A DNA stretch of 64,000 bases from Methanosarcina sp. KYL-1 (GTDB lineage Archaea > Halobacteriota > Methanosarcinia > Methanosarcinales > Methanosarcinaceae). Every line of letters starts with the position of its first letter. Within the stretch, counting starts at the first letter, position 1. Shown in pieces: positions 1-29,392 of this stretch. The stretch is taken from assembly GCF_024372725.1 (NCBI RefSeq), contig NZ_VOUA01000001.1:327242-391241 (forward strand), read 5' to 3'. The notes under the pieces were generated by a model that was not told the DNA's origin, did no database searches, and saw only the letters and a list, made by a program, of their open reading frames with translations. The position numbers and the translations under genes were made by a program.

Positions 1-480
1 ATCCATCCAAATCATTTGCAAAGCCCGGCTTCACGTTCTCCGGAAGTGCTGTGGGCTTCTTTTATCACCTCTATGGCAATTTCCAGGAACACACGTTACA
101 TTCACGGTACTGTTATCAATAACTTCTCAGGTCCATGTACGGAATCCATGATGTATGAAACTGCGGTTCAGGCAATTGGGAGTACTGTATGCGGAAGCGA
201 TTATCTTTCGGGGCCCGTTTCAAACGCAGGGAATGAACTGAATCATTCGGGAGGCCTGGATGCTCTTTTCATGGCAAAGATTGCAGAACTGGCAACGGCT
301 CTTTCTCTTGATGATGCAAACTATCTATGCACAGAAATCTACCAGAAATATAAAGGCGAAAAGCCTGAGTTTGGCAAACCCTTCGAAGAGTGCTATAACC
401 TGAAAACAATAGAGCCTTCTGAAGAATATTATACCATATATGAGCAGGCTATGGGACAGGTCTATGATCTTCTGGCATGA
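1..480 (+). CDS. MtmB-like methyltransferase, 3' end only
   Basis: The reading frame is open from base 1 and stops with TGA at 478-480, so the window cuts the gene. The visible 159 codons align closely with the C-terminal part (from about residue 290) of the complete MtmB-like protein at 19611-20966, sharing HPNHL, SPASRS, EVLWASFITSMAI, SGPCTESMMYETA and PVSNAGNELNH. The family is monomethylamine:corrinoid methyltransferase (TIM barrel). The residue equivalent to pyrrolysine lies upstream of the window, so whether this copy has an amber codon cannot be seen. No corrinoid protein follows it; the next gene is a convergent hemL-like gene. It is a paralogue or duplicate of 19611-20966. Confidence 0.85.
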   Translation: MHPNHLQSPASRSPEVLWASFITSMAISRNTRYIHGTVINNFSGPCTESMMYETAVQAIGSTVCGSDYLSGPVSNAGNELNHSGGLDALFMAKIAELATALSLDDANYLCTEIYQKYKGEKPEFGKPFEECYNLKTIEPSEEYYTIYEQAMGQVYDLLA

Positions 481-2917: not shown

Positions 2918-4321
2918 ATGGCTACTGAATACATGACCCGCATGGGGGACGGTCGCAGAGTTTTCATGACCCGGGAAGATATCCTGGCTGACATTGAAGC
3001 TGGAGTTGCGGAAGGCGCTGACAGTGCTGAGGTGCCTGCTCTTTCAGAGGAGGAGATTGAACACCTGCTGGAAATTGTATGTGCTAAAGAAAGGATTGTA
3101 ACTGTTGAACCCGGAAATGAAATTGTCATGTCGCAGGACGGGGGTGCAATCTCAATAGACTCCGAACATACAAGTGGAGTTCCCAGTGGTCGGATCCTCG
3201 CGACCCTCATGTATGAAAGGGGCTTCTGTATGGATTCCATTGACTTTGGGCATACCGATTACAGCTTCAAGCCTGTAAAACCGTTGATTTCCGTGGAGTG
3301 CCAGCAGATGAGGTGGGTTCAGGAAGCAGTTACCGTTCCTGTGCTTTATGGTGCAATGCCCAATATGGGGCTGTACTATACTCCCGATGGCCCCTATGAA
3401 AATCCGGGAGACCTTATGAAAGCTTTCAAGATCCAGGAAGCAAGGGAATCCATTGAAAAATCTGCAGATCACCTGACAAGGGACATCATCTGGATCGTTC
3501 AGAAAATGATGAAGTCCGGGGGTGCAGACGGGATTAACTTTGACACTACCGGGGCTGCAGGGGATGGGGATTTCTTTGCTGCTCTCCGCGCAGTTGAATT
3601 CCTGAGAAAGGAGTTCCCTGAAATGTATATTGAAATGGGTATGGCAGGTGAAAGCATGCTGGGGATCCATGGGGAGCTTGAGTATAAGGGTAAAGCCGTG
3701 GCAGGCCTCTGGCCTCACAAACAGGTAGAGCTCGCTGCAGAGGCAGGGGCCAATGTCTTCGGGCCGGCTGTCAACACAAACACTACCAGATCTTTCGCCT
3801 GGAACCTTGCAAGGGCTGTGACCATTGTAAAGGAAGCTTCTAAGGTTTCTCCTATTCCCGTACACGTCAACATGGGTAACGGTGTTGGTGGCGTGCCTAT
3901 GTTTGAGCTCCCGACACTTGATGCTCTCTCAAGGGCAAACAAAGCCATGGTCGAACTGGCACATGTGGATGGCATATAGTCCGGATCCGGTGATTCCTTC
4001 AGTATGCGTGGTGTTCATGTTGCCACCTCGGGAATGACCGGTATGAGGGCTGCAGGCGATCTTGTGGCCAGGGTTGAGTTTGCAAAGAGCATGAAGATTG
4101 GCGATGCAAAAGCCTACGTGGCAAAGAAGCTTGGGGTTGATGTGATGGACCTTGCCGATGAGAATGCTATGAAGGAAGTCAGGGAGGAACTGGGGCTTGG
4201 AACTATGACCGAGTTCAGGGAAACGCCTAAGGGTATTGCTGCAAAGATGAATATCGAGAAAGTGCTTGATCTTAAAATCAACTCATGTGAGCTTTTCCGA
4301 AGCCTTGCAGGGTTTATTTAA
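2918..4321 (+). CDS. mtbB: Dimethylamine methyltransferase MtbB, pyrrolysine protein
   Basis: Transfers a methyl group from dimethylamine to the MtbC corrinoid, releasing monomethylamine. The frame contains one amber codon at 3977-3979 (codon 354) and continues in the same frame to TAA at 4319-4321, giving 467 residues. The segment before the amber ends in HVDGI, matching the VDGI-Pyl context of known MtbB, and the downstream part ([27 protein letters not shown]) continues the same family. The amber is therefore read as pyrrolysine, and the gene is neither a pseudogene nor two genes. The start follows GAGGTGG. Also seen: [16 protein letters not shown] and [15 protein letters not shown]. The pylT, pylS and pylBCD genes needed for readthrough are not in the window. 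Confidence 0.96.
3977..3979 (+). other. In-frame amber codon read as pyrrolysine (mtbB)
   Basis: TAG at codon 354 of mtbB, flanked on both sides by conserved MtbB sequence in one frame. This is the site occupied by pyrrolysine in characterised dimethylamine methyltransferases. Confidence 0.95.
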
Positions 4322-4480: not shown

Positions 4481-4582
4481 ATTTCTCATATATCTTGAGG
4501 TATTGTCTGGCTGTGATCAGAATCCTCTGTCAAAAATGTGTTTCCTCGTTAATATCAAATAAATGAATAGGTGGCTAAAAAA

Positions 4583-6073
4583 ATGATTAACAAGTCCTAC
4601 TCCGGTAAAAATTTGCTGGATGGTCTTTATCTTGGAGTACTTTCGCAGGATGAACTTAAGGCCATTCACGCTGCAACAGTAGACATATTTTCTGAATACG
4701 GAATCCTGGTGACCGATTCCGAAGCAAGGCAGATCTTCAAGGATGGAGGCTGTGATGTTGATGAAAACACAAAGATGGTAAAGATCCCTGAACATGTTCT
4801 TGAAGAGGCATTAAAGAAGGCCCCCTCCAGGTTCAAGCTTTACGGAAGGGACAAGAAATACAATCTTGTACAGGAGGCAGGCGGAGATACCCTCTGGACT
4901 AATTTCGGTATTGGCGTTAAGATGAGCGTCTATGACGAGTCAAAAGGGCGCTGTGTTGTTAGGAGCAGTACGGCTCAAGATGTTGCAGACACCGCAAAGA
5001 TGTGTGATTGGGCGGAGAATATGGACTTTTACACAGTTGCCGTGGCTGCTATGGATTGGACTGGCAAGGGTGCAGCTGACGTACACTCGACATACGAGGC
5101 CATTACAAACATTTCAAAGCCTGTGCTCCTTGCTCCGGAAGCCGAAAGCTTTGACTACTACATGGACATGATGGCAGCCTACTACGGGGGGGATATGGAA
5201 GAAGCCATCAAGAAACCTATCTGTTCCATGGCAGCATGTCCAACAAGCCCCCTGGAACTGGGTGACAATGTGTGTCAGATGACTATCAAGAGTGCCCGCA
5301 TCAAGTTCCCGAACAATATTATCAGTATGGCTATGTCTGGGGCCTCTTCTCCGGTCTTCCTCGCTTCTACCCTTGTTACCCACAACGCAGAGGTCCTCGC
5401 GACTCTTGTGCTTGCACAATTGACAGAGCCCGGCGCACCTTTCTGGTACGGTAGCTCAACCACAGGATTTGACATGAAGAGGGGCACGGCCCCGGTGGGT
5501 TCTCCTGAACTCGGGCTGCTCAGCGCAGCTGTCGCAAAACTTGCCCAGTTTTACAACCTTCCTTCCTTTGTGGCAGGCACCTAGGCCGACTCCAAGCTGC
5601 CTGACGCCCAGGCAGGGCACGAGAAAACTCTTACAAGCCTTCTTCCTGCCCTTGCCGGTGCAAACTCCATTTACGGAGCAGGCATGCTTGAGCTAGGTAT
5701 GACCTTTTCTATGGAACAGTTTGTGATAGACAATGACATTATAGGTATGATTAAGAAGAGCATGGAAGGAATTCCGGTTTCCGGGGAGACCCTGGCTGTC
5801 GAAGCTATCAAGAAAGTGGGAGCTGGAAATAACTTCCTCGGGCATAAGACCAGCCGGCAGAATATAGACCTGCCCTCCAACCCCAGGCTTTTTGACAGGC
5901 GTATGTATGGGGACTGGGAATCGGCAGGTTCAAAAGACACAATGGCAGCTGCACATGAAAAAGTTGTAGACGTCATGAAAAACCATGTGGTCAAACCCAT
6001 CGATTCTGATATCCTGAAGGATATGTGGGCCATAGTGAAAAAGGCCGATAAAGAACACGGCAGGCAATTGTGA
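4583..6073 (+). CDS. mttB: Trimethylamine methyltransferase MttB, pyrrolysine protein
   Basis: Demethylates trimethylamine and methylates the MttC corrinoid. A single in-frame amber lies at 5582-5584; the frame then runs on to TGA at 6071-6073, 496 residues in all. The context LPSFVAGT[19 protein letters not shown] matches known MttB around its pyrrolysine. I use the ATG at 4583 rather than the GTG at 4571, because AGGTGG lies 8 nt upstream of it and because it puts the amber at codon 334, the position I recall for Pyl in Methanosarcina barkeri MttB. Other motifs: KLCDWAEN-type [29 protein letters not shown] and [21 protein letters not shown]. It is followed 12 nt later by mttC. Confidence 0.96.
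5582..5584 (+). other. In-frame amber codon read as pyrrolysine (mttB)
   Basis: TAG at codon 334 counted from the ATG at 4583; conserved MttB sequence continues without frameshift on both sides. Confidence 0.95.
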
Positions 6074-10771: not shown

Positions 10772-10891
10772 TTATATTTTACTCATGAAATTTCTTGCAA
10801 GGTATAACACGGTCAGATCTATGAAAAGCAGAATGCAAAAAAATATATAATCTGCTCCTTCAAACGCCCAAATACCTTCAATGTGAATCAT
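10772..10891 (-). CDS. 39-residue membrane microprotein (cassette copy 1)
   Basis: A small gene missed by usual length cut-offs. It begins MIHIEGIWAFEGADY, continues with a hydrophobic segment of about 20 residues (FFCILLFIDLTVLYLA) and ends RNFMSKI. A clear GGAGG lies upstream of the ATG. It follows the winged-helix gene at 10927 by 35 bases. A homologue sits in the same place in the second cassette (14753-14875), sharing I-[DE]-GIWAF-x-GADY and the FMSK ending. Conservation of frame, length and ribosome site across two diverged copies argues it is translated. Function is unknown; a single-span membrane partner of the adjacent DMT permease is the natural guess. Confidence 0.8.
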   Translation of the reverse strand: MIHIEGIWAFEGADYIFFCILLFIDLTVLYLARNFMSKI

Positions 10892-10926
10892 CCTGCGCCT
10901 CCTTTCTGCCAGAAAATTTCGATAAT

Positions 10927-11211
10927 TTACATTAAGTATTCAAGGGCTCTGGACTTTCCTTCCTCTGAGATTTTGAATCTGTACAGCACTTTGCCTTTCC
11001 CGAAGTGTGTGCCGTCATCTACTGCCACTTCCGTGACATGGAACAGTCCACTGGAAACAAGTTCTGCTGTCCAGAAACGCACGGTCCATCGCCAGCGCTT
11101 ATTGCTTTTTCCATACTCCTCAAGAACCTGGCTGACAAGCTCGTAGTCCCATGCCTCATCTTTTTTCTCATAGAGGAGCTGGAGAAGTCTACTTTTCATT
11201 GGAAGTTTCAT
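10927..11211 (-). CDS. Small winged-helix-like protein (cassette copy 1)
   Basis: A 94-residue protein (MKLPMKSRLLQLLYEKKDEAW...). It is a clear paralogue of the 97-residue protein at 14888-15181: both have KS-L-LLYEK-EAWDYELV, a Trp-rich helix (W-W-V-RFWT-EL) and a VAVDDG-HFG-KVLYRF hairpin followed by a C-terminal helix. The helix-helix-helix-wing order looks like a winged-helix domain (inference from pattern, not a profile hit). It lies 22 bases downstream of the DMT permease gene. It could regulate the cassette, or be a cytoplasmic partner of the transporter. Confidence 0.75.
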   Translation of the reverse strand: MKLPMKSRLLQLLYEKKDEAWDYELVSQVLEEYGKSNKRWRWTVRFWTAELVSSGLFHVTEVAVDDGTHFGKGKVLYRFKISEEGKSRALEYLM

Positions 11212-11233
11212 TTTTCTTCTCCCTTTCTATTTT

Positions 11234-12445
11234 TCAGGAACTTTCGACTTCTCTGGTTGTTTCGAGAATGGTGTCTTTGCTTTCCCAGTACATGACAAAG
11301 GTCCCTCCTATTGTGATCAGGGACCCGACGAGGAGCCACCATTTGAATGACTCTCCAAGGAAGAGGGAGAGTGACATAATTGCAAATATCACGTAAAAGG
11401 TGGAAATGCTCTGGCCCCGCCCCGCTCCTATTAGTACGTAGGACTTGTACATCCCGATATAGGCGGCTGCAAAGGATGCGGATGCGAGAGCTTCCCAGAA
11501 TATAAATTGTGGGTTTGTGTATGCGGCAATAAACACCGTGCTTATGGTATCAAACCCGAATATCAGGGAGGCGGCTGGAATCATTATGCAGATCCATATC
11601 AGGGCATCCCATATCAGGCGGACTGTAACGCAGGCTTCAGTGTCGCAAAGGTCTGAAGTGCGTCCTGCAACGGTAGCTTCCATTCCCCACCCAAAGGCTG
11701 CCATCAATCCTCCAACATATCCAAGCCATGAGCTGCCAGAGTTTGAAATTTCTTCAATCAGTTTAAGGGGATTCCATATGAATGCCCCTCCGATGATTGT
11801 GAATACTATGGCAGTTATTGTCCTTTTGTTTATTTTTTCCTTGTACCAGAGTCTTGCCGTAAGGGCGGCTATCGGTCCGCAAAGCAGGGCCGCGGATGCA
11901 GAGAATGATCCTCCTATATATCCAACTGCAAGCGTGCTTCCGTAAAGTGCAAATACGCCTCCGCAAAAACCGGCCAGCAACAGCCATTTTGATATTTTGG
12001 GGTTAAAGAAGGTCCTGTAAACTTCCGACATTTTTCCCTGCCCGACAACGAAGAGAAGTGCAAAAATAAAAGGGTCTCCGATAGACAGCCCGGCTGATGC
12101 AAGGAGGGTGGCTATAAAATGCCCGTGTTCACTCGGAAAAACCGTCGGATCATTAAGTGGGTATACATGCCATAGAGCTGAAAGTGGGATGTATCCAATT
12201 CCCCATAAAAATGCCCCTATCAGTGCCCAGGTAAACCCCCATTTTATTCTGTTTTTCTTTTCATTCACTATGCAGCTCTCAATGTCAATATTTTCCCAAC
12301 TAAGCTGCTTTTTCTGATTTTCATACTCTCCGTTTTCAAGGCATGTTTTTATTCTAACCCCTCCGTTTTTGCACAAAATTATTCTTCCTTTTTTGCAACT
12401 CTCCGGTTTTGGTCGTGGGGGTGAGTTCCTGAAAACCGTAGGCAT
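11234..12445 (-). CDS. DMT-superfamily permease (cassette copy 1)
   Basis: About 403 residues with some ten hydrophobic segments in the EamA-type arrangement. It is paralogous to 15184-16311: EKKNRIKWGF before the first helix, AVGYIGGSFSASAALLCGPIAALTARLWYKEK, GRTSDLCDTE, IGMYKSYVLIGAGRGQSISTFYVI and MYWESKD all have counterparts. The N-terminal 60 residues are poorly conserved and the start is uncertain; ATG at 12445 is chosen over one at 12475. It is probably an uptake or efflux system for a methylated amine-type substrate, given the surrounding methyltransferases; genes called methylamine permeases occur at such places in Methanosarcina. The substrate is not readable from the sequence. Confidence 0.85.
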   Translation of the reverse strand: MPTVFRNSPPRPKPESCKKGRIILCKNGGVRIKTCLENGEYENQKKQLSWENIDIESCIVNEKKNRIKWGFTWALIGAFLWGIGYIPLSALWHVYPLNDPTVFPSEHGHFIATLLASAGLSIGDPFIFALLFVVGQGKMSEVYRTFFNPKISKWLLLAGFCGGVFALYGSTLAVGYIGGSFSASAALLCGPIAALTARLWYKEKINKRTITAIVFTIIGGAFIWNPLKLIEEISNSGSSWLGYVGGLMAAFGWGMEATVAGRTSDLCDTEACVTVRLIWDALIWICIMIPAASLIFGFDTISTVFIAAYTNPQFIFWEALASASFAAAYIGMYKSYVLIGAGRGQSISTFYVIFAIMSLSLFLGESFKWWLLVGSLITIGGTFVMYWESKDTILETTREVESS

Positions 12446-12475
12446 AAGAATCTCTTTGTATCTTTTCCCAAACAC

Positions 12476-12951
12476 GTGGAATGTGCTCGTTTTTCAGATT
12501 CTATCAATAACTCTCCTCATGACCCTGTTTTTTATCAGGTTTATCAGGCTTCTTAAATCCATTTTTTTTCAATTGTTCAATTTGCTAAGAAATTTCAACT
12601 CAATCCCCTTATTTTTTATATCGATGTCAACTTTAATATTAATTTTTTTATATTTCGCTTTTTTTGTATATTATATATTCGTTTTTCTATTCAAATAGCA
12701 TCATTTAAATATTATGAATTTTCTTTTACACAGTTCTTCCCCCGGTTATTTTCTTTAATATAATGAATTTTCTTTTTGCATTTCCATCTGGGCAATGTTA
12801 TCGGAATCAATATAATTCAGGGAAAAGGGTTAATGAAAATATGATATTGGAAGATGATGGATTAAGTGAGTATAAAAATAGGGAAATTTGAAAAAAGGAT
12901 GAGGAATAAAATAGTTTGAGCATGGTCCATAACCATGCTCTTCTAAATTTT
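12476..12951. other. Intergenic, AT-rich, no gene seen
   Basis: About 480 bases between the start of the DMT gene and the end of the APC permease gene. It is very T-rich on the plus strand near 12560-12700, with possible TATA elements for the DMT gene. No conserved ORF, repeat or hairpin stands out. Confidence 0.5.
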
Positions 12952-14466
12952 TTATGCTTCTTTCATATGAGATATGGGGTCAGTTCTCATGGACGATGGC
13001 TCTTTTCCTGAATTCGGGTTTTTTGGTGCAAAATCCAGCTCTTTTTCTCCAAAAATCATATATTCGCGCTCTTCTTCGCTTATAGAATTCCTCTCGTTTG
13101 TTGCCATGTAGTAAAACACCACTCCCAGTAACATCCAGGCGAGGAATGTGGCCCATTCAACGGAATTTATTGCGCCAGGACTTCCAGGTACAACCATCAT
13201 CATTACCATTAAGGCGGTAATGAGAGTTGCTAAGTATCCTGTCTTGATGCCTCCGGGCATCTTAAAGGGCCTTTCCATTTCGGGTTCGATTTTTCTCAAT
13301 CTAACGGCTGAGAGGCAGACAAAAAGCCATGCGAGCATGAAGGAAAGTGCGCCCACACTCATTACAGGAATCAGAATGGCAGTTCCTACGAATGGGGCAA
13401 TTATAGTGATTATACTCACAAAAATTATGGCATTCTTTGGGGTCCGGCATCTCTCATCAACTTTTCCAAAGTATGTGGGGATGAGTTTTGCGCGTCCCAT
13501 ACTGAAAATCAGCCTGGTTGATGCAACGAAGAAAGCATTTAACGTGCTTAGCAACCCGCAGACAGCTCCAATTAAAACAAGTCTGCCGATGAAGGGGGCT
13601 ACACCCATTATCGCGTCGGCGGCCGGATACTCAAGATTTATGAGGCTTTTCCAGGGCATAAGCAGGGCAACGACAAATATTATGGTGCTGTAAAATATTG
13701 CCCCTGATAAGGGTGTTATGCTCAGGACTTTTCCCAGGTTATGGTAACTTATTCCCGACTTACTTTCTTCTGCTCCCTGGGGAATTGTATCAAAACCTGC
13801 TACGAAGAAGGGGGTGATTGCAAGCACTGCAATAATGCCTCCCAATGTTCCGAATCCTTCTATGGAATGTCCCATGTAGGGCTGGAGGTTTGAGGCATCT
13901 CCGAGTAAAACGCCGGCAAATGCATAGGCAATTCCACACAGTATCAGGAGTTTTGTGATGGAGGACTGAAATTTAGCAGCTTTTTCGACACCCTTGTAGT
14001 TAATGTACGCGATAGAGAGGGCCACAATCAGCTCCAGCATAAGGAGGGGAAAGTATACTTCAAATCCCATTATTTCATAGAGTGGCATTGTTTTTAGTCC
14101 GGGGAAGATGCTTGATGCAATGGTGCCGACAGCTACTGCTTCCCAGGGGCAGAGAAATACATAAGCAAATGATAGTATCCATCCAGTATAAAAAGAGGCT
14201 TTAGGGCCAAATCCTCTGTAGGTATAGGCGATCTCTCCTCCTGCCACTGGCATGGAAGAGACCATTTCTCCATATGTCCATGTGACTGGGAGCAGAATTG
14301 CTCCTCCTATAAGAAATGCAATTATTGCGGCCAGAGGCCCTCCTGCAGTCCCTATCCAGTCGCCAACACAGACGACCCAGCCAATCCCTACCATTGAACC
14401 GAAGCCCAGGGTGAAATAATCGAAAAGTCCCATCGTTTTCTTCAGTTCGTGCCTTTCAATATGCAT
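12952..14466 (-). CDS. APC-family amine/amino acid permease
   Basis: A 504-residue transporter with about twelve membrane segments. The APC signature is near the N-terminus (FDYFTLGFGSMVGIGWVVCVGDW), followed by GGPLAAIIAFLIGG, PVAGGEIAYTYRGFGPKASFYTGW and TPKNAIIFVSIITI. The family exchanges or imports amino acids, polyamines or amines with protons or sodium. It lies between the two DMT cassettes and close to amine methyltransferases, so methylamine or a related N-methyl compound is a plausible substrate (inference). The C-terminus is a hydrophilic tail of about 50 residues. It appears to be its own transcription unit, with 285 bases before the cassette microprotein gene upstream. Confidence 0.9.
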   Translation of the reverse strand: MHIERHELKKTMGLFDYFTLGFGSMVGIGWVVCVGDWIGTAGGPLAAIIAFLIGGAILLPVTWTYGEMVSSMPVAGGEIAYTYRGFGPKASFYTGWILSFAYVFLCPWEAVAVGTIASSIFPGLKTMPLYEIMGFEVYFPLLMLELIVALSIAYINYKGVEKAAKFQSSITKLLILCGIAYAFAGVLLGDASNLQPYMGHSIEGFGTLGGIIAVLAITPFFVAGFDTIPQGAEESKSGISYHNLGKVLSITPLSGAIFYSTIIFVVALLMPWKSLINLEYPAADAIMGVAPFIGRLVLIGAVCGLLSTLNAFFVASTRLIFSMGRAKLIPTYFGKVDERCRTPKNAIIFVSIITIIAPFVGTAILIPVMSVGALSFMLAWLFVCLSAVRLRKIEPEMERPFKMPGGIKTGYLATLITALMVMMMVVPGSPGAINSVEWATFLAWMLLGVVFYYMATNERNSISEEEREYMIFGEKELDFAPKNPNSGKEPSSMRTDPISHMKEA

Positions 14467-14730
14467 CTCTGATTTGCCATCTCCTTCATTTTTATTATCA
14501 AGAATATGAATTCCTCCGGTATGCAGATGGAAAAGTGCAGTCTACGCTATCATATGTTAAAATTTGAAATTGAATCAGTACCGGGAATCTGGTTTTCATG
14601 GCATAATGGTGCCATGAACAGGCATTTTAAGAAAAAATGGAGTTTTTGAAGCCTGAATTCGCGACAAAACCAGTTATGCCTTTTTTCCCTTTCACGGTTT
14701 AGTATCTCGGTGTTTTCCGGATTATTCCTT

Positions 14731-14761
14731 AAAAATAAAGGTTTGAGAAGGCTCAAACCTT
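14731..14761 (-). terminator. Terminator of the second DMT cassette
   Basis: Perfect 10-bp inverted repeat AAGGTTTGAG (14738-14747) / CTCAAACCTT (14752-14761) with a 4-base loop. Read on the minus strand it is followed by TATTTTTAAGG. The stem includes the stop codon of the microprotein gene, so the cassette transcript ends exactly there. This supports the microprotein being the last gene of the operon. Confidence 0.75.
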
Positions 14762-14875
14762 GCTCATGAAGGTACGTGAAAGGTAGAGGATTGCAACATC
14801 CAGAGCTATCAACAGGAATGCAAAAAGGTAGTCAGCCCCGTTAAACGCCCAGATTCCGTCTATGTGGAATAACAT
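14753..14875 (-). CDS. 40-residue membrane microprotein (cassette copy 2)
   Basis: Starts MLFHIDGIWAFNGADY, has a hydrophobic span (LFAFLLIALDVAILYL) and ends SRTFMSKV before TGA. GAGGTGA lies 6 nt before the ATG, and the gene begins 12 nt after the winged-helix gene. It is homologous along its whole length to the microprotein at 10772-10891. The terminator stem overlaps its last codons. Unknown family; predicted single-span membrane protein with a short Asp/Trp-containing N-terminal segment. Confidence 0.82.
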   Translation of the reverse strand: MLFHIDGIWAFNGADYLFAFLLIALDVAILYLSRTFMSKV

Positions 14876-14887
14876 CTTTATCACCTC

Positions 14888-15181
14888 TCAGATCAGGAGT
14901 TCCTCAGCCCTTTCTTTCCCAAGTGCTGTCATCTGGAACCTGTACAGTACCTTGTCTGTCCCGAAGTGGCTTCCGTCGTCAACGGCAGCTTCTACGACTT
15001 TGAAGATATTTGAGGCCGCAAGTTCTATTGTCCAGAAACGAATGACCCATTTCCAGTAATCTGTGGTCTTTCTGGACTTCTCCTGAATTTCATGTACAAG
15101 CTCGTAATCCCAGGCTTCGCCTTTTTCATAAAGCAGTTTTACAAGCATGCTCTTCATTGTCAGTTTGCTGTCGTCTGCCAT
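14888..15181 (-). CDS. Small winged-helix-like protein (cassette copy 2)
   Basis: A 97-residue paralogue of 10927-11211 (LTMKSMLVKLLYEKGEAWDYELV, RFWTIELAASNIF, VDDGSHFGTDKVLYRFQMT, C-terminal GKERAEELLI). The pattern of helices and a beta-hairpin suggests a winged-helix fold. It begins 2 bases after the DMT permease stop and precedes the microprotein by 12 bases, so the three are a tight operon. Not assigned to a named family. A role as regulator or as permease-associated protein is inference. Confidence 0.78.
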   Translation of the reverse strand: MADDSKLTMKSMLVKLLYEKGEAWDYELVHEIQEKSRKTTDYWKWVIRFWTIELAASNIFKVVEAAVDDGSHFGTDKVLYRFQMTALGKERAEELLI

Positions 15182-15183
15182 AT

Positions 15184-16311
15184 TCAGGCCTCCTTAACGA
15201 CTCTGGTTCCGTCTGTCATTGAGTCGCTGCTTTCCCAGTACATATATACGGTACCGAATACAGCCAGTGCAGAGCCGGCTACAATCCACCACTTCAGAAC
15301 GTCTCCCATGAAGAAGTAAAGGGTAAGGAATCCTGGAATTATGTACAGGGTTGCAATGCTCAAACCGCGGCCTGCACCAATCAACGGGAAGGATCTGTAC
15401 ATCCCCACATAGGCTGAGAACAGTGACATTACATAGAGCACTTCCCATATCCAGTATGCGGGGTGCTGGTATATGTGTGCCATTGCCCCGATCATCGTGT
15501 CAAACCCGAAGAGCAGGATTGCAAGGGGAAGGCAAAAGAAGGTCCACCAGAAGAAATCAAAGATTCCGCGGCATGTCATGTTCATGGAATAATCGTATAC
15601 ATCGGCTACACGTGCAACAAACACTCCTTCAAGGCCCCATGCAAGTGCTGCCAGCATACCGCCAACGTAACCGATCCATGCATCCTTGGTTGCCGGATTT
15701 GCAAGGTCTTGAAGCAATGCATAAGGGTTGAATACAAAAATCCCACCAAGAACGATAAATAAAATCCCAATCATTGCTTTTTTATTCAATTTTTCATGAT
15801 ACCATAAGTTTGCAACAATTGCAGCAATCGCACCCGTGAGAAGGCTCGCTGCGGCAGCAAAAGAGCCACCTGCATAAGCAACGGCAAGCTGGTATCCTCC
15901 TACTCCTATCGGGCTTGCAATTAATGTCGCAAGGAGCATGGTTTTCGAAATTCTAAGATTGGATATTGCCTTTGGCACATCGGATAGTTTGCTTTCTCCA
16001 AGATCCCAGAACAACGTGGTAACAAAGACTTTAGTAATTCCGGCTCCAAAGGCGATTGTAACCATTGCAACAAGGTATCCTGTATATCCTTCGGGAAAAA
16101 CTGCGGAATTACTCATATCGGGGATTTTCCAGACTGCTACGGACGGGACATATCCCATTCCCCATATAATGGCAGCCAGGATTCCCCAGATGAATCCCCA
16201 CTTTATTCTGTTCTTTTTCTCCTTTCCAATCAAGTCGCCAAGCTTTGAACTTGCATATTCTGCATGTTCTTTCGTGTTGAACGGCCTTTTGTTTTCTGAC
16301 ACGTTTTCCAT
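15184..16311 (-). CDS. DMT-superfamily permease (cassette copy 2)
   Basis: A 375-residue EamA/RhaT-like transporter with about ten membrane helices. Features: KNRIKWGFIWGILAAIIWGMGY as helix 1, YAGGSFAAAASLLTGAIAAIVANLWYHEKL at the end of the first repeat, GLEGVFVARVADVYDYS, IGMYRSFPLIGAGRGLSIATLYIIPGF and a final MYWESSDSM. It is the first gene of the cassette with 14888-15181 and 14753-14875. The ATG at 16311 follows AGGAGGATAACATGG-type sequence. Homology to 11234-12445 is clear outside the N-terminus. Substrate unknown; a methylated nitrogen compound is suggested by context. Confidence 0.88.
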   Translation of the reverse strand: MENVSENKRPFNTKEHAEYASSKLGDLIGKEKKNRIKWGFIWGILAAIIWGMGYVPSVAVWKIPDMSNSAVFPEGYTGYLVAMVTIAFGAGITKVFVTTLFWDLGESKLSDVPKAISNLRISKTMLLATLIASPIGVGGYQLAVAYAGGSFAAAASLLTGAIAAIVANLWYHEKLNKKAMIGILFIVLGGIFVFNPYALLQDLANPATKDAWIGYVGGMLAALAWGLEGVFVARVADVYDYSMNMTCRGIFDFFWWTFFCLPLAILLFGFDTMIGAMAHIYQHPAYWIWEVLYVMSLFSAYVGMYRSFPLIGAGRGLSIATLYIIPGFLTLYFFMGDVLKWWIVAGSALAVFGTVYMYWESSDSMTDGTRVVKEA

Positions 16312-17151: not shown

Positions 17152-18534
17152 TTATTCTTTTACTTCCAGGCCCATATCACTAATTTTTGCCTTTGTCCCC
17201 TCCCAAAGGTCTACGAATTCTTTTGAAGGCCTGTTGGTTCTCAGATCATAGCATTCGTAGAACTTCTTTCCGGGCTCCGGCTTGAAGGTTGAAGGATTGT
17301 CTCCTCCGTACATTTTAATGAATTCCACGACAAATTCATTTGCTTCCTTCAAACTCATGCCTGCAAATGCACTGCTTGCTCCGTCAAGGATCCTTGAATT
17401 CATTCCCGAGTATTCGTTTTCGTGGATTGCGTCGCATGAAATTGCACCCTGGATTGCATCGGAGCCGGCAGAGACTGCTGTGCCGCCTATTGCAAAGGTT
17501 TCATAAATCATCCTTTCCGTACACATCCCTGATGAGGCTCCACAGTATACCTGTATCAATGCATTTGTATTCTGGGTCATTGCAGCAGTCATTGAACCTA
17601 TTGCAAAAATGCCCTCATTGAACACCTGATGTCCTGTAACAACATCAAAGGGTGGAGTGACATAAATACAGGGTCCGCCGAGTAGGAGGAAGGATGCAAT
17701 GCATTCTGCTGTCAAGCCGATTGCGGTTGTTTCTGGCCCTCCCAGATATCCTCCCAGCAGGGGTGCCATACAGTTGGCTATTCCAAGGTTGTTATACTGA
17801 CAGTATAGGGACTTTTTAAGCACGTCCCAGTCCACTTTCATGTCATTCAGGAGGGAAACCAGCAGCCTGTCAGAGGAGCGGAGTCCTTCCGGGGCATGCC
17901 CGAAACACTGCCCCTCGCTGCTTGATGCGCTCATAGTCCCCGTGATCGAGAGCCCCGGCCTTCCGGCTCTGCGGAGTGCCTCCCTCGTCATCTCGATTTC
18001 TCTTCTTGCGGCAATCATTTCTGCCGTGGTATTGGACTTTATTTCTGAACCGTTGATTGTTTCCAGAGTTGCTGTGTGCAAACCTCTCACGCAGGGTTCC
18101 TGGGCAAAGGACTGCATGAGGGGGATGTAGTATTCTTCTGAAATGGGGGCTCCACACGGTCCTCCGATTATTGGGGGGAGTCTCTTGCTTTCAAAACCTC
18201 TTTTTACCACCTGGCATTTTTCATTTCCTTCTCCCATTGTATATTCCCCGGGAAGGAGCCTGAGGTGGTGCTTTATTTCAGATTCTTCGAATTTTATGAT
18301 GCGCCCTGTTGATTCATTATAAAATCCTACATCAACGAGAAGGTCTACTGCTGCATTAAATATGTTTTTTATGTAGCTAGGGTCTGAAGGAACAATTTCC
18401 TCCGGGGTAAAAGAAATATCGTACTCACTCGCGAGTTCGTACAGTTTTGTGGGTAGGGTTATATTTGAAAATTCAGTCTCATCCTGCTGTCTTCCTTCAA
18501 TTGAACGTATGTATATGTCCCATGGGTCTAACAT
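17152..18534 (-). CDS. MtmB-family methyltransferase lacking pyrrolysine (Thr at the site)
   Basis: A 460-residue protein of the monomethylamine methyltransferase family: IIGGPCGAPISEEYYIPLMQSFA, GRPGLSITGTMSAS, LLGGYLGGPETTAIG, CTERMIYETFAIGGTAVSAG and KKFYECYDLRTNRPSKEF. In MtmB the motif is GRPGMGV-Pyl-GPETS; here the pyrrolysine position is Thr198 (ITGT), and no amber codon exists in the frame. It lies 23 bases downstream of a corrinoid-protein gene on the same strand, so it most likely methylates that corrinoid. Without Pyl, which in MtmB binds and orients the amine, the substrate should differ from monomethylamine (inference by analogy with Pyl-free MttB-family enzymes such as MtgB). 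ATG 18534 follows GGTGATAAC. Confidence 0.9.
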   Translation of the reverse strand: MLDPWDIYIRSIEGRQQDETEFSNITLPTKLYELASEYDISFTPEEIVPSDPSYIKNIFNAAVDLLVDVGFYNESTGRIIKFEESEIKHHLRLLPGEYTMGEGNEKCQVVKRGFESKRLPPIIGGPCGAPISEEYYIPLMQSFAQEPCVRGLHTATLETINGSEIKSNTTAEMIAARREIEMTREALRRAGRPGLSITGTMSASSSEGQCFGHAPEGLRSSDRLLVSLLNDMKVDWDVLKKSLYCQYNNLGIANCMAPLLGGYLGGPETTAIGLTAECIASFLLLGGPCIYVTPPFDVVTGHQVFNEGIFAIGSMTAAMTQNTNALIQVYCGASSGMCTERMIYETFAIGGTAVSAGSDAIQGAISCDAIHENEYSGMNSRILDGASSAFAGMSLKEANEFVVEFIKMYGGDNPSTFKPEPGKKFYECYDLRTNRPSKEFVDLWEGTKAKISDMGLEVKE

Positions 18535-18557
18535 GTTATCACCTTCTTCCTTCTCGA

Positions 18558-19202
18558 TTACGCCTTAGCGATCAGTTTTTGTGCAACTCTTACAGCATCC
18601 ATTGCGTCTTCCGCATATGCATCGGCCCCTATCTGGTCGGCATATCCCTGGCTTACGGGAGCCCCTCCGACCATGATCTTAAACTGCTCCTCACATCCCA
18701 TGCTGTTTCGAAGTTCCACTACGTCCCTCAGGTATGGCATGGTTGTGGACATAAGGGCGGAACACGCAACAATGTCTGCCTTATTTTCTTTTGCGGCTTC
18801 GAGATACTTTTTTACGGGGACATCTTTTCCGAGGTCGATAACTTCCATCCCTGCAGTTTTCAACATGACGGCGACAATGTTCTTTCCAAGATCATGGATG
18901 TCTCCTTCGATCGTACCAATAATTACTTTTCCAGCGCATTTAGCTTCGGATACGTCCAGAGCATCGATCAGCATCTTATTTGATTTTTCCATTATGCCGG
19001 CAGCAAGTACGACCTGGGGCAGGAAAAATTTCCTCTGGTTAAACCTTTCTCCTACTTCGATCATCGCATCTGCCAGAGTCTTCATAACCGTTGAAGCGCT
19101 GATATTGTTATTCAGGCACTCTTTGACGGCACTGGTTGTTTTGTCAGAGTTTATTGCTAAAAGTGAATCATAAACTGATTTGAGTAATTCTTCTTCTGCC
19201 AT
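18558..19202 (-). CDS. Corrinoid protein of the MtmC/MtbC/MttC family
   Basis: A 214-residue methyl carrier with the N-terminal cap domain (IEVGERFNQRKFFLPQVVLAAGIM) and the cobalamin motif GDIHDLGK (His103 as predicted lower ligand), then ACSALMSTTMP and VGGAPVSQGYADQIGAD. It is divergent from MtbC and MttC of this window. It is the first gene of a two-gene operon with the Pyl-free MtmB homologue at 17152-18534 and divergent from another such homologue at 19611. Likely receives a methyl group from one or both, and passes it to a CoM methyltransferase encoded elsewhere. Confidence 0.92.
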   Translation of the reverse strand: MAEEELLKSVYDSLLAINSDKTTSAVKECLNNNISASTVMKTLADAMIEVGERFNQRKFFLPQVVLAAGIMEKSNKMLIDALDVSEAKCAGKVIIGTIEGDIHDLGKNIVAVMLKTAGMEVIDLGKDVPVKKYLEAAKENKADIVACSALMSTTMPYLRDVVELRNSMGCEEQFKIMVGGAPVSQGYADQIGADAYAEDAMDAVRVAQKLIAKA

Positions 19203-19610: not shown

Positions 19611-20966
19611 ATGGAATATTTCATTTCCAAGATGCTGAATGGAAAAGAAAGAACTGAAAGTGAACATGAGCGTTTAATTTACCGAAATTCCCTTGAACTG
19701 GTTGAAGCCCATGATCTTACTTTTGATCCCGAATATCCGGTACCTGTGGATATGAGACTGGCAGACCGTGTTTTCAGTGCAGCTCTCAACTTGCTGGAAG
19801 AAGTTGGAGTTTATTCCACAGATACAAAGAGAGTGGTTGAGTTCTCCAAAAGTGAAATGAGGCAGTGCATCAGAAACTCCCCATTTTCTTTTAGAATAGG
19901 GAGCAATGCAGATTCAACAGAGGTCAGGTTCAGAAATGTGCTTGATGAACGGACCCCGTTGATTATCGGGGGGCCCTGTGCAGTTCCTATAACTGATGAT
20001 TTATTTCTTCCGGTTCACCGGTCTTATGCAAAAATAAATCGGGTTGATTCGGTTGCACCTGCTTCGTATCATTGTTCTGAATATCCACGCTACAGGTTAA
20101 AGAAGAGTCCGCTTAACATGTATGAGGCTCATAAGGCGGTTAAGTTGATCAAAGAAGCCTGCAGAGTTGAAGGGCGCCCTGATATCTGTTGCGTAAGCCC
20201 TCCTTTTATTGATGATGTTAGAACCGCGCTTTCCATATCAGACCCTCAGTTTATGGGTAGGGGGGACCTGGAGGAGTTGTATCCGAAACCCGATTTGAAA
20301 GCGGATCTTGATCAGATGGCGAGAGTCATTCATTATCGTGGTGTGGGGGTGTACTATGTGTCCTCCTCCATGTTATTGATGGGTGGCATCACAAGTGCCA
20401 CTCCCGAACAATTTGCAATTGAAATGACTGCAGAGATCTTAAAAAGCAGAATCCTTTACTCTTGTCCCCTTAGTTTTGTTCATCCTAACCATCTTCGAAG
20501 TCCGGCTTCCAGGTCTCTGGAAGTGTTGTGGGCTTCCTTTATCACTTCCATGGCAATTACAAGGAACTCTGATCTTCTTCACGGCATTGTGGTCAACAAT
20601 TCTTCCGGTCCCTGTACAGAGTCAATGATGTACGAAACTGCCGTGCAGACGATAGGGAGCACTGTTTGCGGTGCCGATTCGCTCTCTGGCCCGGTTTCAA
20701 ATGCAGGTAATGAACTGAACCATGCTGCGGGTCTGGATGCTCTTTTCATGGCAGCGGTTTCTGAACTCTCGGTATCCCTCTCTCTAAAGGATGCAAATGA
20801 TCTATGTCTTATTTTGTTCAATGAGTATCGGGACAAAAAGCCTGAGTTTGGAAAAAAGTTTGATGAATGCTATGATCTCTCAAGAATTGAGCCTTCAGAA
20901 GAATATCTTGACATATACGAGAGGGCAATGGAACATATATATGAACTGATAAGTGAAAGCCTGTGA
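19611..20966 (+). CDS. MtmB-family methyltransferase lacking pyrrolysine (Val at the site)
   Basis: A 451-residue protein, closest in this window to the partial gene at 1-480 and more distant from 17152-18534. Family features: LIIGGPCAVPITDDLFLPVHRSYAK, EGRPDICCVSPPF, SGPCTESMMYETAV, FGKKFDECYDLSRIEPSEEY. In the MtmB alignment GRPGMGV-Pyl, the pyrrolysine position corresponds to Val195 in GRPDICCV. The neighbouring Cys193 and Cys194 are not seen in MtmB. No in-frame amber. Divergent from the corrinoid gene at 18558-19202, with which it probably works. It ends before a convergent HyuA-type gene. Function as a methyltransferase is inferred from the fold; the substrate is unknown. Confidence 0.88.
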   Translation: MEYFISKMLNGKERTESEHERLIYRNSLELVEAHDLTFDPEYPVPVDMRLADRVFSAALNLLEEVGVYSTDTKRVVEFSKSEMRQCIRNSPFSFRIGSNADSTEVRFRNVLDERTPLIIGGPCAVPITDDLFLPVHRSYAKINRVDSVAPASYHCSEYPRYRLKKSPLNMYEAHKAVKLIKEACRVEGRPDICCVSPPFIDDVRTALSISDPQFMGRGDLEELYPKPDLKADLDQMARVIHYRGVGVYYVSSSMLLMGGITSATPEQFAIEMTAEILKSRILYSCPLSFVHPNHLRSPASRSLEVLWASFITSMAITRNSDLLHGIVVNNSSGPCTESMMYETAVQTIGSTVCGADSLSGPVSNAGNELNHAAGLDALFMAAVSELSVSLSLKDANDLCLILFNEYRDKKPEFGKKFDECYDLSRIEPSEEYLDIYERAMEHIYELISESL

Positions 20967-21228: not shown

Positions 21229-23160
21229 TTACCCCTCTTTAGCTTCCCTTATCCCCACGCCCATAACCATCAGTTTCGTCTCCATTGGGGGGTGGTTCCA
21301 GCCGTCGGGGGAGATCGTTTTTTTCTCAATGGAAATCTCGACCTGGGGTCCGCTTAAGCCGCAGTCTTTCATGTAGTCCCCAATAAGCTTTTTTCCGAGG
21401 GCTGTGGCTGTGTCAAGGGCATCGGTGTAGATTTCGAACTTCAGCCTGCCTGTGGGGGAAAAGACAAGAAAGCCCTTATCGGGAGACATCAGGCTTTCGG
21501 GCCGGATCAGGATTTCAACCCTTTTGATGCCTTTTCCCACCAGGGCTCCTACTGCGTTTCCCACCTCGGCGTGTTCGGGGACCTGGACTTCCGCATCTAT
21601 GAGCTCTTTTATTTCCTCTCTGTATGCCCGGACAGGGCCTCCGAGCAGGACTATGGGAATTCCCAGTTTGAATTTTGCAGGGTAGTTTCCGTCAAGGATT
21701 TTTTCAACGGCTGTTTCGGGGACTCCTGCCAGGATATAGGAGAGCAGGTGAAGGGTCATGCTCATTGCAACCTGTTTTTTTACGGCAGTGCAGAACTCGT
21801 GGGGGGTCATGCGCATGAGCCTTGAAAGGCGTTCGGCCCCTATGCGGGAAGCTTCTTCGTTCCAGTCCGTGTAGTCCCCAAGCACATGCAGGGCATCGGT
21901 AGGGGTAAAGCCGATTGCCTGGACAAGCCGCTTCTTTATAAGGGAGTCAAGGGTCTGGGGGATCGGGTCTTTTTTGATAAGCTTTCCTATCTCGTCGATG
22001 GAGAGGGGTTCGTCTCCGAGTACATTCAGGATTTCGGCTTCCGAAACGCTCAGTTCCCCTGCAGGGTAGCCGGACCGCAAGAAGAATTTTGTGGGCTGGA
22101 CGTTTTCACAGAGATCTTCTCTGGCAGGCATGGGGGTCCTTTTTAACATGTTCAGGAAATCGGGGTACTGCATCGCGGCCACCGAAAGGGGTATGACTCT
22201 CCGCGGGCCGATGAAAAGTTCTCTGTTCATCGTCCAGACGTGGCTGTCCCCGCCCATCGCCGTGGTCTCCATTTTAATTGCCCTTACGCGGGTCTTCCAC
22301 CCGCCCACAACGGCGCCTTCATCGCTCAGGTCGGGCACGCCCCCGCAGATCGAGGAAATGTCCGTGCTTGTCCCGCCCACGTCCACAACGGCGCAGGTCT
22401 CAAGCCCCGAGAGGTAGGAAGCCCCGACAAGGCTTGCCGCAGGCCCGGAAAAAATGGTCTCGATGGGCTTTTGCAGGGCATCCCTGATCCCAACCACGGA
22501 ACCGTCGCATTTGAGCATGAGGAGCCTTGCATTGATGCCCCTTTCCTTTATGTCGGTAATGATTGACTGCGCAAACTGCCGGGTTATGGGGATTAGCTGG
22601 GCGTTTAGAAAAGCGGTTACTGCCCTTTCGTAAGCTCCCAGTTCCTGGGAGAGCTCGTGCCCGCAGACCGCAGGCAGGCCCGTAAGTTCAAGGACCCGGT
22701 CCCTTGCTTTCAGTTCATGTTCGGGGTTCCGGGTGCTGAAGTAAGAAGAAATGGCAAAAGCAGACACCTTGCCCTTTACCTTCAGGGCAAATTTCTCAAT
22801 GGCCTCGAGGTCCAGGGGTACGTTTTCTTCCCCGTTATGGTTGTGTCCGCCTGCGGCAAAAAGGACATGTTTTGTGGGCAGTTCCTTTTCAAGGGGGTGG
22901 TCTCCTATAAGGATCAGGGCAACTGGGAACCCCGTACCCTCCAGGATCGTATTGGTAGAAAGAGTAGTTGAAACCGAGACCAGTTTTACATTTTCGAGAT
23001 GTTCAGGTTCCAGGCCGTTAAGCACGTTTTTAATGCCGGTCAGGGGGTCAGGGTAGGTAGTAAGCGCTTTGTTTGAAGCTATAATGGCGCCGTCAGAGTC
23101 TCTTATGAGCACTGCATCCGTGTAAGTTCCGCCTGCATCAATCCCGAGGCTGTAATGCAT
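21229..23160 (-). CDS. Stand-alone HyuA-type hydantoinase/oxoprolinase family protein (copy 1)
   Basis: A 643-residue ASKHA-fold protein: GIDAGGTYTDAV at the N-terminus, STTLSTNTILEG, HELSQELGAYERAVTAFLNAQL, the second phosphate loop VVDVGGTSTDIS and GGDSHVW. The family hydrolyses hydantoins or 5-oxoproline with ATP, normally with a HyuB partner, and no HyuB is present here. About 60% of the positions I compared are the same in 27470-29392. Distantly, the ATPase fold is shared with proteins that reductively activate corrinoids, so a role in corrinoid-protein activation or in opening a cyclic N-methyl substrate are both possible (inference). It ends convergent to the Pyl-free MtmB homologue. 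The C-terminal region carries DGWNHPPMETKLMVMG, also found in copy 2. Confidence 0.85.
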   Translation of the reverse strand: MHYSLGIDAGGTYTDAVLIRDSDGAIIASNKALTTYPDPLTGIKNVLNGLEPEHLENVKLVSVSTTLSTNTILEGTGFPVALILIGDHPLEKELPTKHVLFAAGGHNHNGEENVPLDLEAIEKFALKVKGKVSAFAISSYFSTRNPEHELKARDRVLELTGLPAVCGHELSQELGAYERAVTAFLNAQLIPITRQFAQSIITDIKERGINARLLMLKCDGSVVGIRDALQKPIETIFSGPAASLVGASYLSGLETCAVVDVGGTSTDISSICGGVPDLSDEGAVVGGWKTRVRAIKMETTAMGGDSHVWTMNRELFIGPRRVIPLSVAAMQYPDFLNMLKRTPMPAREDLCENVQPTKFFLRSGYPAGELSVSEAEILNVLGDEPLSIDEIGKLIKKDPIPQTLDSLIKKRLVQAIGFTPTDALHVLGDYTDWNEEASRIGAERLSRLMRMTPHEFCTAVKKQVAMSMTLHLLSYILAGVPETAVEKILDGNYPAKFKLGIPIVLLGGPVRAYREEIKELIDAEVQVPEHAEVGNAVGALVGKGIKRVEILIRPESLMSPDKGFLVFSPTGRLKFEIYTDALDTATALGKKLIGDYMKDCGLSGPQVEISIEKKTISPDGWNHPPMETKLMVMGVGIREAKEG

Positions 23161-27469: not shown

Positions 27470-29392
27470 TCACGCGCTTGCGTAGTTTCCGGTGCCCAGG
27501 AAGACCAGTTTTGTCTCCATGGGGTTTTTCCAGCCATCAGGCACGATTTCTCTTTTGTCTATTTCGATCCGGATCTTGCCGGGGTCAAGGCCCGAGTCGG
27601 CCATGTAGTCCATTATCAATTTTTCTCCCAGGCTGTGAGCATGGTCAAGGGCTTCTCCGTAATGTCCGAACCTTTCCCTTCCCCTCTCCGAAAAGACGAA
27701 GAATTCCAGGTCAGGAGCTGCCATGGATACAGGCCTTATCAGGATTTCGGCTCTGCGTACTCCTTTTGCGGCAAGGGCTCCGGCTGCGTTTCCTGCTTCC
27801 GCATGTTTCGGGACTACGATTTCCGCATCAAGGATATTCTTCAACTCTTCCTGATAGGCGACAACCGGGCCCCCGATAAGGACCACCGGGACTTCCACTT
27901 TGAATTTTGCGGGAGATTCGAGGTCAAAGATTTTCCTGACCTCGGTTTTATCGACTCCATCCAGGAAGAACGATATGAGTCCCGAGGCCATGTTTCTGGC
28001 AAACTCTTTCTTTATATGCCTGGCAAATTCCTCTTTTTCCATCCCCACAAGGGACCCGAGCATCGCTGCTCCTATTTCCGAAGCCTCAGTTTCCCATTCT
28101 GTATAGTCCCCGAGCACGTGGAGGGCGTCAGTAGGGGTAAACCCGACTGCCTGGATCAGGCGCTTCTGGAGCAGGGAGTCCAGCTGGTAGGATGCAGGAT
28201 ACTTTCCAAGGCGGGTGTACATCTCGGAAACGGATGTAGGCGTTTCGCTTACCGCATCCAGGACTTCCTTTTCCCCTTTGCTGATCTCTATTGGCCTGTA
28301 CCCTGTCCTGATGTAGAACTTTGTGGGCTGGAAATTGATCCCCATGATTATTTTCGAGGGCATGGGGTTTACTTTCAACTGCTGCAGGAAACCCAGGTAA
28401 AGTGAAGCCGCCCTGCAGAGCGGAATTACCCGGTGGGGTCCGATGGTAATCTTTTTTTCTTTGACCCAGACGTGGCTGTCTCCCCCCATTGCCGAGGTCT
28501 CCATTTTTATCGCCCTGACCCGGGTCGTCCAGCCTCCAACTACGGCTCCGGCTTCGCTCATCTCAGGGACCCCGTTTTTGATCATGGAAATGTCCGTGCT
28601 CGTACCTCCCACGTCGATCATGGCGCAGGTATCCTTTCCGCTCAGGAAAGCGGCTCCCACCAGGCTTCCCGCAGGGCCCGAAAAGATGGACTCGATGGGT
28701 TTTTCCAGGGCCTTTTTGATTCCCACGACGGACCCGTCGCATTTGAGCATCAGGACTTTTGCCTCCATCCCGCGGCTTTCTATTTCTTTTACCACGGTCT
28801 GCATGAATTTCTCGGAAATCGGGATTAACTGGGCGTTAAAAAAAGCAGTTACAGCCCTTTCGAAGGCTCCCAGGTCCTGGGAGAGTTCGTGGGCACAGAC
28901 CACGGGCAGGCCGGTAAGTTCAAAAACGGCTTTCTTTACGGCAATTTCGTGTTCGGGGTTTCTTATGCTGAAATAGGACGAAACCGCAAATGCCGATACC
29001 TTTTCTTTAACTTCCAGGGCGAATTTCTTCACAGCTTCAAGGTCAAGGGGAGCGGCCTCTGCCCCGTTGTACCCGTGCCCACCGTTTACCTGAATATAGT
29101 GGGGGGTCGGAAGTTCTTTTGTGAGGTCATAGTTCCCGACAAGGATCAGCCCTACCGGGAAGCCTGTCCCTTCCAGGATCGTGTTGGTGGAAAGGGTGGT
29201 AGAAACCGATACGACTTTTACGTTTTTTATGTACTCTTTGTCCAGCCCGTCAATTGCGTTTTTAATGCCTTCGAGCGGGTCAGGGTATGTCGTAAGCGCC
29301 TTGCTTACCGCGATGACGGTGTCATCCCTGTTCCTGACAATTACGGCGTCGGTGTAGGTACCTCCTGCATCAATACCAAGGCTGTAGTGCAT
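27470..29392 (-). CDS. Stand-alone HyuA-type hydantoinase/oxoprolinase family protein (copy 2)
   Basis: A 640-residue paralogue of 21229-23160: GIDAGGTYTDAVIVRN, KALTTYPDPLEGIKNA, STTLSTNTILEGTGFPV, HELSQDLGAFERAVTAFFNAQLIPI, AMIDVGGTSTDIS, AIKMETSAMGGDSHVW and GFTPTDALHVLGDYTEW. The ASKHA nucleotide-binding motifs are intact, so it should bind ATP. No HyuB subunit is encoded nearby. It is downstream, on the same strand, of a hypothetical gene and a DUF1638 gene (29850-31230), with gaps of about 450 and 150 bases. The role of these single-subunit proteins in methanogens is unknown to me. An MITE-like element sits 9 bases past the stop. Confidence 0.85.
   Translation of the reverse strand: MHYSLGIDAGGTYTDAVIVRNRDDTVIAVSKALTTYPDPLEGIKNAIDGLDKEYIKNVKVVSVSTTLSTNTILEGTGFPVGLILVGNYDLTKELPTPHYIQVNGGHGYNGAEAAPLDLEAVKKFALEVKEKVSAFAVSSYFSIRNPEHEIAVKKAVFELTGLPVVCAHELSQDLGAFERAVTAFFNAQLIPISEKFMQTVVKEIESRGMEAKVLMLKCDGSVVGIKKALEKPIESIFSGPAGSLVGAAFLSGKDTCAMIDVGGTSTDISMIKNGVPEMSEAGAVVGGWTTRVRAIKMETSAMGGDSHVWVKEKKITIGPHRVIPLCRAASLYLGFLQQLKVNPMPSKIIMGINFQPTKFYIRTGYRPIEISKGEKEVLDAVSETPTSVSEMYTRLGKYPASYQLDSLLQKRLIQAVGFTPTDALHVLGDYTEWETEASEIGAAMLGSLVGMEKEEFARHIKKEFARNMASGLISFFLDGVDKTEVRKIFDLESPAKFKVEVPVVLIGGPVVAYQEELKNILDAEIVVPKHAEAGNAAGALAAKGVRRAEILIRPVSMAAPDLEFFVFSERGRERFGHYGEALDHAHSLGEKLIMDYMADSGLDPGKIRIEIDKREIVPDGWKNPMETKLVFLGTGNYASA

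Follow-up and report, generated by a model that had tools for sequence, protein, structure and literature searches.

A 64,000-nucleotide stretch of the Methanosarcina sp. KYL-1 genome (contig NZ_VOUA01000001.1, positions 327,242 to 391,241, referred to below as the window) carries two copies of the same trio of genes, which encode a permease of the drug/metabolite transporter (DMT) superfamily, a winged helix-turn-helix protein (wHTH) and a membrane-spanning microprotein. Do these three products work as a single transporter and, if so, what does it carry? The initial annotation had proposed a transporter that imports a methylated compound and has a small subunit in the membrane and a partner in the cytoplasm. 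This proposal is supported by the occurrence of the trio across domains, by wHTH-permease fusions, by the LicB-like fold of the permease and by the methylamine genes in its neighbourhood. We consider it probable (roughly 0.65) that each cassette encodes a three-part LicB-like system for the import of tertiary or quaternary methylated amines, a reading in which we infer the complex, its orientation, the direction of transport and the substrate. A three-part transporter is the simplest account of a strict cross-domain co-occurrence that survives a change in gene order, together with gene fusion and a conserved membrane-spanning microprotein, while import of methylated or quaternary amines is suggested by the LicB relationship and the gene neighbourhoods.

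Layout and coding status of the two cassettes

The cassettes lie at 12445-10772 and 16311-14753 and consist of the following features.

11234-12445, minus strand: DMT/EamA permease of cassette 1, start uncertain (ATG 12445, TTG 12376 or GTG 12268)
10927-11211, minus strand: wHTH of cassette 1, 94 residues
10772-10891, minus strand: single-span microprotein of cassette 1, 39 residues, MIHIEGIWAFEGADYIFFCILLFIDLTVLYLARNFMSKI, ribosome site AAGGAGG
15184-16311, minus strand: DMT/EamA permease of cassette 2, 375 residues, AlphaFold model with a predicted local distance difference test score (pLDDT) of 89.5, nearest structure LicB
14888-15181, minus strand: wHTH of cassette 2, 97 residues, predicted PadR/MarR/RosR-type fold (pLDDT 95)
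14753-14875, minus strand: single-span microprotein of cassette 2, 40 residues, MLFHIDGIWAFNGADYLFAFLLIALDVAILYLSRTFMSKV, ribosome site GAGGTGAT
14722-14770, minus strand: terminator-like hairpin with its stem over the TGA stop of microprotein 2 (fold z -2.9)

All genes of the two same-order trios described initially are found, on the minus strand and with tight spacing. The microprotein pattern given for them, I-[DE]-GIWAF-x-GADY with an FMSK end, is correct in both copies, and the strong ribosome sites claimed for both are those listed above. The terminator stem reported over the copy 2 stop is likewise present: the TGA lies within a 10 bp perfect stem that is followed by a T-rich run. No stop-covering hairpin of this kind is seen at cassette 1. 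The sole soft point of the layout is the start of permease 1, where the ATG lacks a good ribosome site and N-terminal similarity to relatives reaches upstream of 12268.

The microprotein frame is a genuine gene. For 75 distinct relatives of 49 residues, taken from Methanosarcinaceae and compared in 866 pairs, the median ratio of non-synonymous to synonymous substitutions (dN/dS) is 0.11 in the microprotein frame; the other two frames of the same DNA give 1.4 and 2.5. It is most unlikely that the window copies are decaying spare duplicates of MttP, the putative trimethylamine permease, without a function of their own. The unclear start of permease 1 and the broken cassettes found elsewhere (L122, L123 and L124) would fit decay, but all six frames of the window cassettes are open, and copy 2 differs mostly silently (pS 0.68, pN 0.15) from its relative in L038, another Methanosarcinaceae genome (permease ∼60% identical). 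As in the window, this permease branch is accompanied in L038 by the MtmB homologue and the corrinoid gene, a conservation that argues further against decay.

Permeases 1 and 2 are 42% identical to each other and group in one clade with L127 (tree support 0.99), which makes them genuine duplicates that predate the split from L127. They may differ in substrate.

Co-occurrence of the three genes

Three more cassettes are present on other contigs of the same genome, five in total, and these combine an MttP-type (putative trimethylamine) permease with a wHTH of ∼100 residues and a microprotein of 49 residues. The permease occurs in 87 of 111 Methanosarcinaceae genomes. Nearly every copy is followed by a wHTH and a microprotein as detected with hidden Markov models (HMMs) built from few seeds; the partners of L063, L151, L158 and L191 were recognised by such an HMM match. 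Within the genus, the wHTH and microprotein profiles match the identical 25 of 30 genomes, the remaining five have no permease match either, and none of these 30 genomes showed a wHTH or a microprotein as an orphan.

The cross-domain scan used one genome per species and permease patterns only. In the best 80 of 181 loci, 59 of which are bacterial, a wHTH and a microprotein are recognisable at every one of the loci that were fetched through their permease. About six phyla are represented, including Pseudomonadota, Bacillota, Actinomycetota, Desulfobacterota and Thermoplasmatota. Bacterial microproteins typically have 36 residues, for example MSDFWGFPGADMLAVAVIIVLSSFALYQARTFVTKL, and their W-x-F/Y-x-G-A-D start and L-Y-x-A-R-T-F-V-x-K end correspond to those of the window copies. 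A few have marginal E-values (up to 0.2), yet they occupy the expected place and have the same motif. Conservation of the microprotein and wHTH in more than 150 distinct sequences, together with the low in-frame dN/dS, places the cassette far beyond chance.

The physical link between the genes varies. In four bacteria (L136, Hyphomicrobiales; L154 and L158, Rhodobacteraceae; L139, Gammaproteobacteria) the permease reads without a stop into the wHTH, which results in a C-terminal fusion. In three Ectothiorhodospiraceae loci (L159, L179 and L182) the wHTH-microprotein pair precedes the permease and all three genes are kept. A gene resembling a universal stress protein lies between this pair and the permease in L159 and L179.

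Several observations weigh against the three-part importer. A lone permease without partner genes is found on a Methanohalobium plasmid (L055), although a complete cassette is present at another site in that genome. The second permease of a tandem pair shares a single wHTH and a single microprotein. One Methanosarcina locus (L075) has kept the permease and microprotein while its wHTH is broken, with another intact set in the genome. About 20 bacterial loci have none of the sought methylamine genes within 6 kb, and the wHTH shares its predicted fold with DNA-binding regulators. As to whether the microprotein is always third in the cassette, a check suggested initially, this position is found after nearly every permease, the exceptions being the tandem pairs, the broken copies, L055 and the altered order in Ectothiorhodospiraceae.

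The tandem arrays have the form permease-wHTH-microprotein-permease (L039, L040, L041 and L042, from Methanolobus, Methanomethylovorans and Methanosarcina relatives), which suggests that a pair of distinct permeases may have a wHTH and a microprotein in common. Among the degenerate cassettes, the wHTH alone is broken in L075 (permease 1468-2532), while in L122, L123 and L124 the permease is broken too.

Predicted roles of the permease, wHTH and microprotein

Both permeases score above the Pfam EamA cut-off of 28.2 bits (copy 1, 31.0; copy 2, 28.8), and the model of permease 2 is predicted to adopt the DMT fold, DMT structures taking ranks 1-21 of the VIA list. The nearest solved relative by sequence as well as by fold is LicB from Streptococcus pneumoniae (PDB entries 7b0k and 7paf), a DMT importer of the quaternary amine choline. 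No PDB entry other than LicB is clearly related in sequence (E 1.1e-13 for LicB, at only ∼20% identity), and the choline-bound form of LicB is the best fold match of the model (Z 29.2, root-mean-square deviation 2.1 over 254 residues; the next non-LicB structure has Z 24.9). In contrast with the three-gene cassettes, the entry descriptions returned for LicB name neither a winged-helix protein nor a microprotein as its partner. The EamA family includes exporters, and placement in it would allow the permease to export, for example, a toxic amine or product. This is very unlikely, since the closest structure is that of an importer and the neighbouring genes encode catabolic enzymes, for which the amine must be inside the cell.

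The wHTH of copy 2 is confidently modelled (pLDDT 95) as a PadR/MarR/RosR-type winged helix. It shares this predicted fold with those regulators and differs from them in being acidic, in having no significant sequence match and in being tied to the permease by gene order and fusion. The family has a median isoelectric point of 5.6 and a net charge of -2 (168 sequences), and the putative recognition helix of window copy 2 is rich in aromatic residues (YWKWVIRFW). No Pfam or NCBIfam regulator family reaches its cut-off: Pfam PadR gives 12.9 and 14.9 bits on two wHTH relatives (cut-off 27), a Pfam scan of the window copies gives no match and the wHTH profile finds no sequence in the PDB. These properties, together with the strict linkage to the permease and the lack of an orphan copy in the genus, make it rather unlikely that the wHTH controls transcription of the amine operon as a local factor, in the manner of a transporter-linked sensor that the permease tethers or releases, and has no structural or transport role. 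Such a regulator would nevertheless agree with the confident winged-helix model, and the permease fusion equally fits one tethered to the membrane.

In 154 of 155 distinct microproteins the stretch C-terminal to the span is more positive than the N-terminal stretch. According to the positive-inside rule, this charge bias suggests that the N-terminus lies outside and the C-terminus in the cytoplasm. The Pfam families DUF6358 (E 0.002 and 0.036) and ATP-synt_Z were both under the cut-off for the microprotein and were discarded, and an NCBIfam search gave no match for the microprotein or the wHTH. The initial annotation expected standard annotation to miss the microprotein. Two annotated plasmid records list no gene for it even though their DNA encodes it, and label the wHTH 'hypothetical protein'; this gene table is incomplete by design, so the missing entry is suggestive only.

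Modulation of transporters by small single-span proteins is well established, and the microprotein could be a regulator of the permease, such as an inhibitor or an adaptor for stability or degradation, that only tunes transport and is no obligate subunit. A putative relative in M. mazei, sORF_05, slowed growth in nitrogen sufficiency when overexpressed (PMC11456600), which agrees with this idea. We regard it as doubtful, because at nearly every locus, across domains, the microprotein is encoded in the same place with a ribosome site of its own, beyond what optional regulators usually show.

In the three-part importer that we favour, the LicB-like permease would form the transport path. The microprotein would be a subunit that crosses the membrane once, oriented with the N-terminus (W-A/G-F-x-G-A-D) outside and the R-T-F-x-x-K end on the cytoplasmic side, and its packing against the permease would stabilise or gate the transporter. 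The acidic wHTH would dock in the cytoplasm at the permease C-terminus and regulate or couple transport. We see an even chance that the cassettes represent a cross-domain transporter class whose LicB-like permease needs two partners in order to work: a single-span subunit of 36-50 residues that mostly goes unannotated, and a wHTH that has lost DNA binding and is now a cytoplasmic transport subunit.

Neighbouring genes, candidate substrates and known systems

Archaeal cassettes adjoin mttB, mtbB and corrinoid genes, and methylamine methyltransferase or corrinoid genes lie within 6 kb at most of these loci. A trimethylamine monooxygenase gene is found within the same distance of 22 of the 59 bacterial cassettes, and was confirmed at one locus (NF058570, 820 bits, cut-off 675). 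Other bacterial cassettes have GcvT/ETF-type amine-oxidising clusters or pyrrolysine-type methyltransferases nearby. In the window, the following genes adjoin the cassettes.

17152-18534, minus strand: MtmB homologue without pyrrolysine, in an MtqB-like arrangement; the canonical TAG (pyrrolysine) position aligns with Thr
18558-19202, minus strand: corrinoid protein upstream of the MtmB homologue, best NCBIfam match MtbC, under the cut-off
12952-14466, minus strand: APC-family amino-acid/amine permease between the two cassettes

The MtmB homologue at 17152-18534 is likely to use the imported compound. The three cassettes elsewhere in the genome would serve ordinary tri- and dimethylamine operons, and the two window cassettes would be a divergent duplicated branch that feeds the neighbouring non-pyrrolysine MtmB-type methyltransferases. 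The substrates of this branch are perhaps quaternary amines, for example tetramethylammonium or choline.

The genome contains three amber-less MtmB homologues, at 17152-18534 (minus strand), 19611-20966 (plus strand, where the pyrrolysine position is apparently Val) and 1-480 (plus strand, with its upstream part on the same contig), all three of them candidate MtqB-type methyltransferases of quaternary amines. Other contigs carry two canonical MtmB genes that contain the TAG codon. Hydantoinase/oxoprolinase (HyuA-type) genes near the methyltransferases (21229-23160 and 27470-29392, both minus strand) are possibly tied to N-methylated ring compounds. A dimethylamine/trimethylamine methyltransferase cluster is located upstream at 2918-3979 and 4571-5584 (plus strand), with open frames that stop at about the expected amber codon.

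The closest known arrangement is the trimethylamine permease operon of M. mazei, which resembles the window cassettes in its gene set of permease (MM_1691), hypothetical protein (MM_1692) and small membrane protein. The last of these, sORF_05 (MM_RS18880), is translated according to ribosome profiling, membrane-associated by fractionation and was proposed as part of the permease (PMC11456600, Nat Commun 2024), so the subunit idea is already published for MttP relatives; that study describes neither the spread across domains nor the fusions. sORF_05 is a putative homologue of the cassette microproteins: its operon position is identical, and the window microproteins have clear homology to that of every Methanosarcina MttP locus. 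The arrangement of an MttP-type cassette, a permease followed by a wHTH and a microprotein near methylamine methyltransferase or corrinoid genes, was found. The window cassettes differ from the MttP operons in that their permeases are only ∼30% identical to MttP, their microproteins have 39-40 residues and a different N-terminus compared with 49, and they adjoin non-pyrrolysine MtmB homologues. The function of MttP is itself unvalidated (PMC11708041).

Kashyap et al. 2026 (PMC13044021) show that MtqB, a non-pyrrolysine MtmB homologue, is a tetramethylammonium/choline methyltransferase, and note one such gene that has an mtbC-like gene upstream. The text of that paper mentions no permease or transporter. 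The genes at 17152-19202 resemble MtqB/MtqC in that a non-pyrrolysine MtmB homologue lies downstream of an MtbC-like corrinoid gene, a likeness of arrangement. In the literature searched, neither the bacterial cassettes nor the fusions, the relationship to LicB or the divergent branch were found to have been reported, and no paper came up on a DMT transporter with trimethylamine monooxygenase. New in this analysis are the cross-domain three-part unit, the permease-wHTH fusions, the link to LicB and a divergent branch that adjoins MtmB homologues of the non-pyrrolysine type.

Uptake of trimethylamine and quaternary amines feeds methanogenesis as well as marine and gut amine metabolism, and the transporters involved are poorly defined. 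If it is true that the permease needs two extra parts, one of which is too small for annotation in many records, tests of the permease as a single gene would miss its function. The cassette is a three-gene unit that is directly testable in ordinary bacteria and in methanogens.

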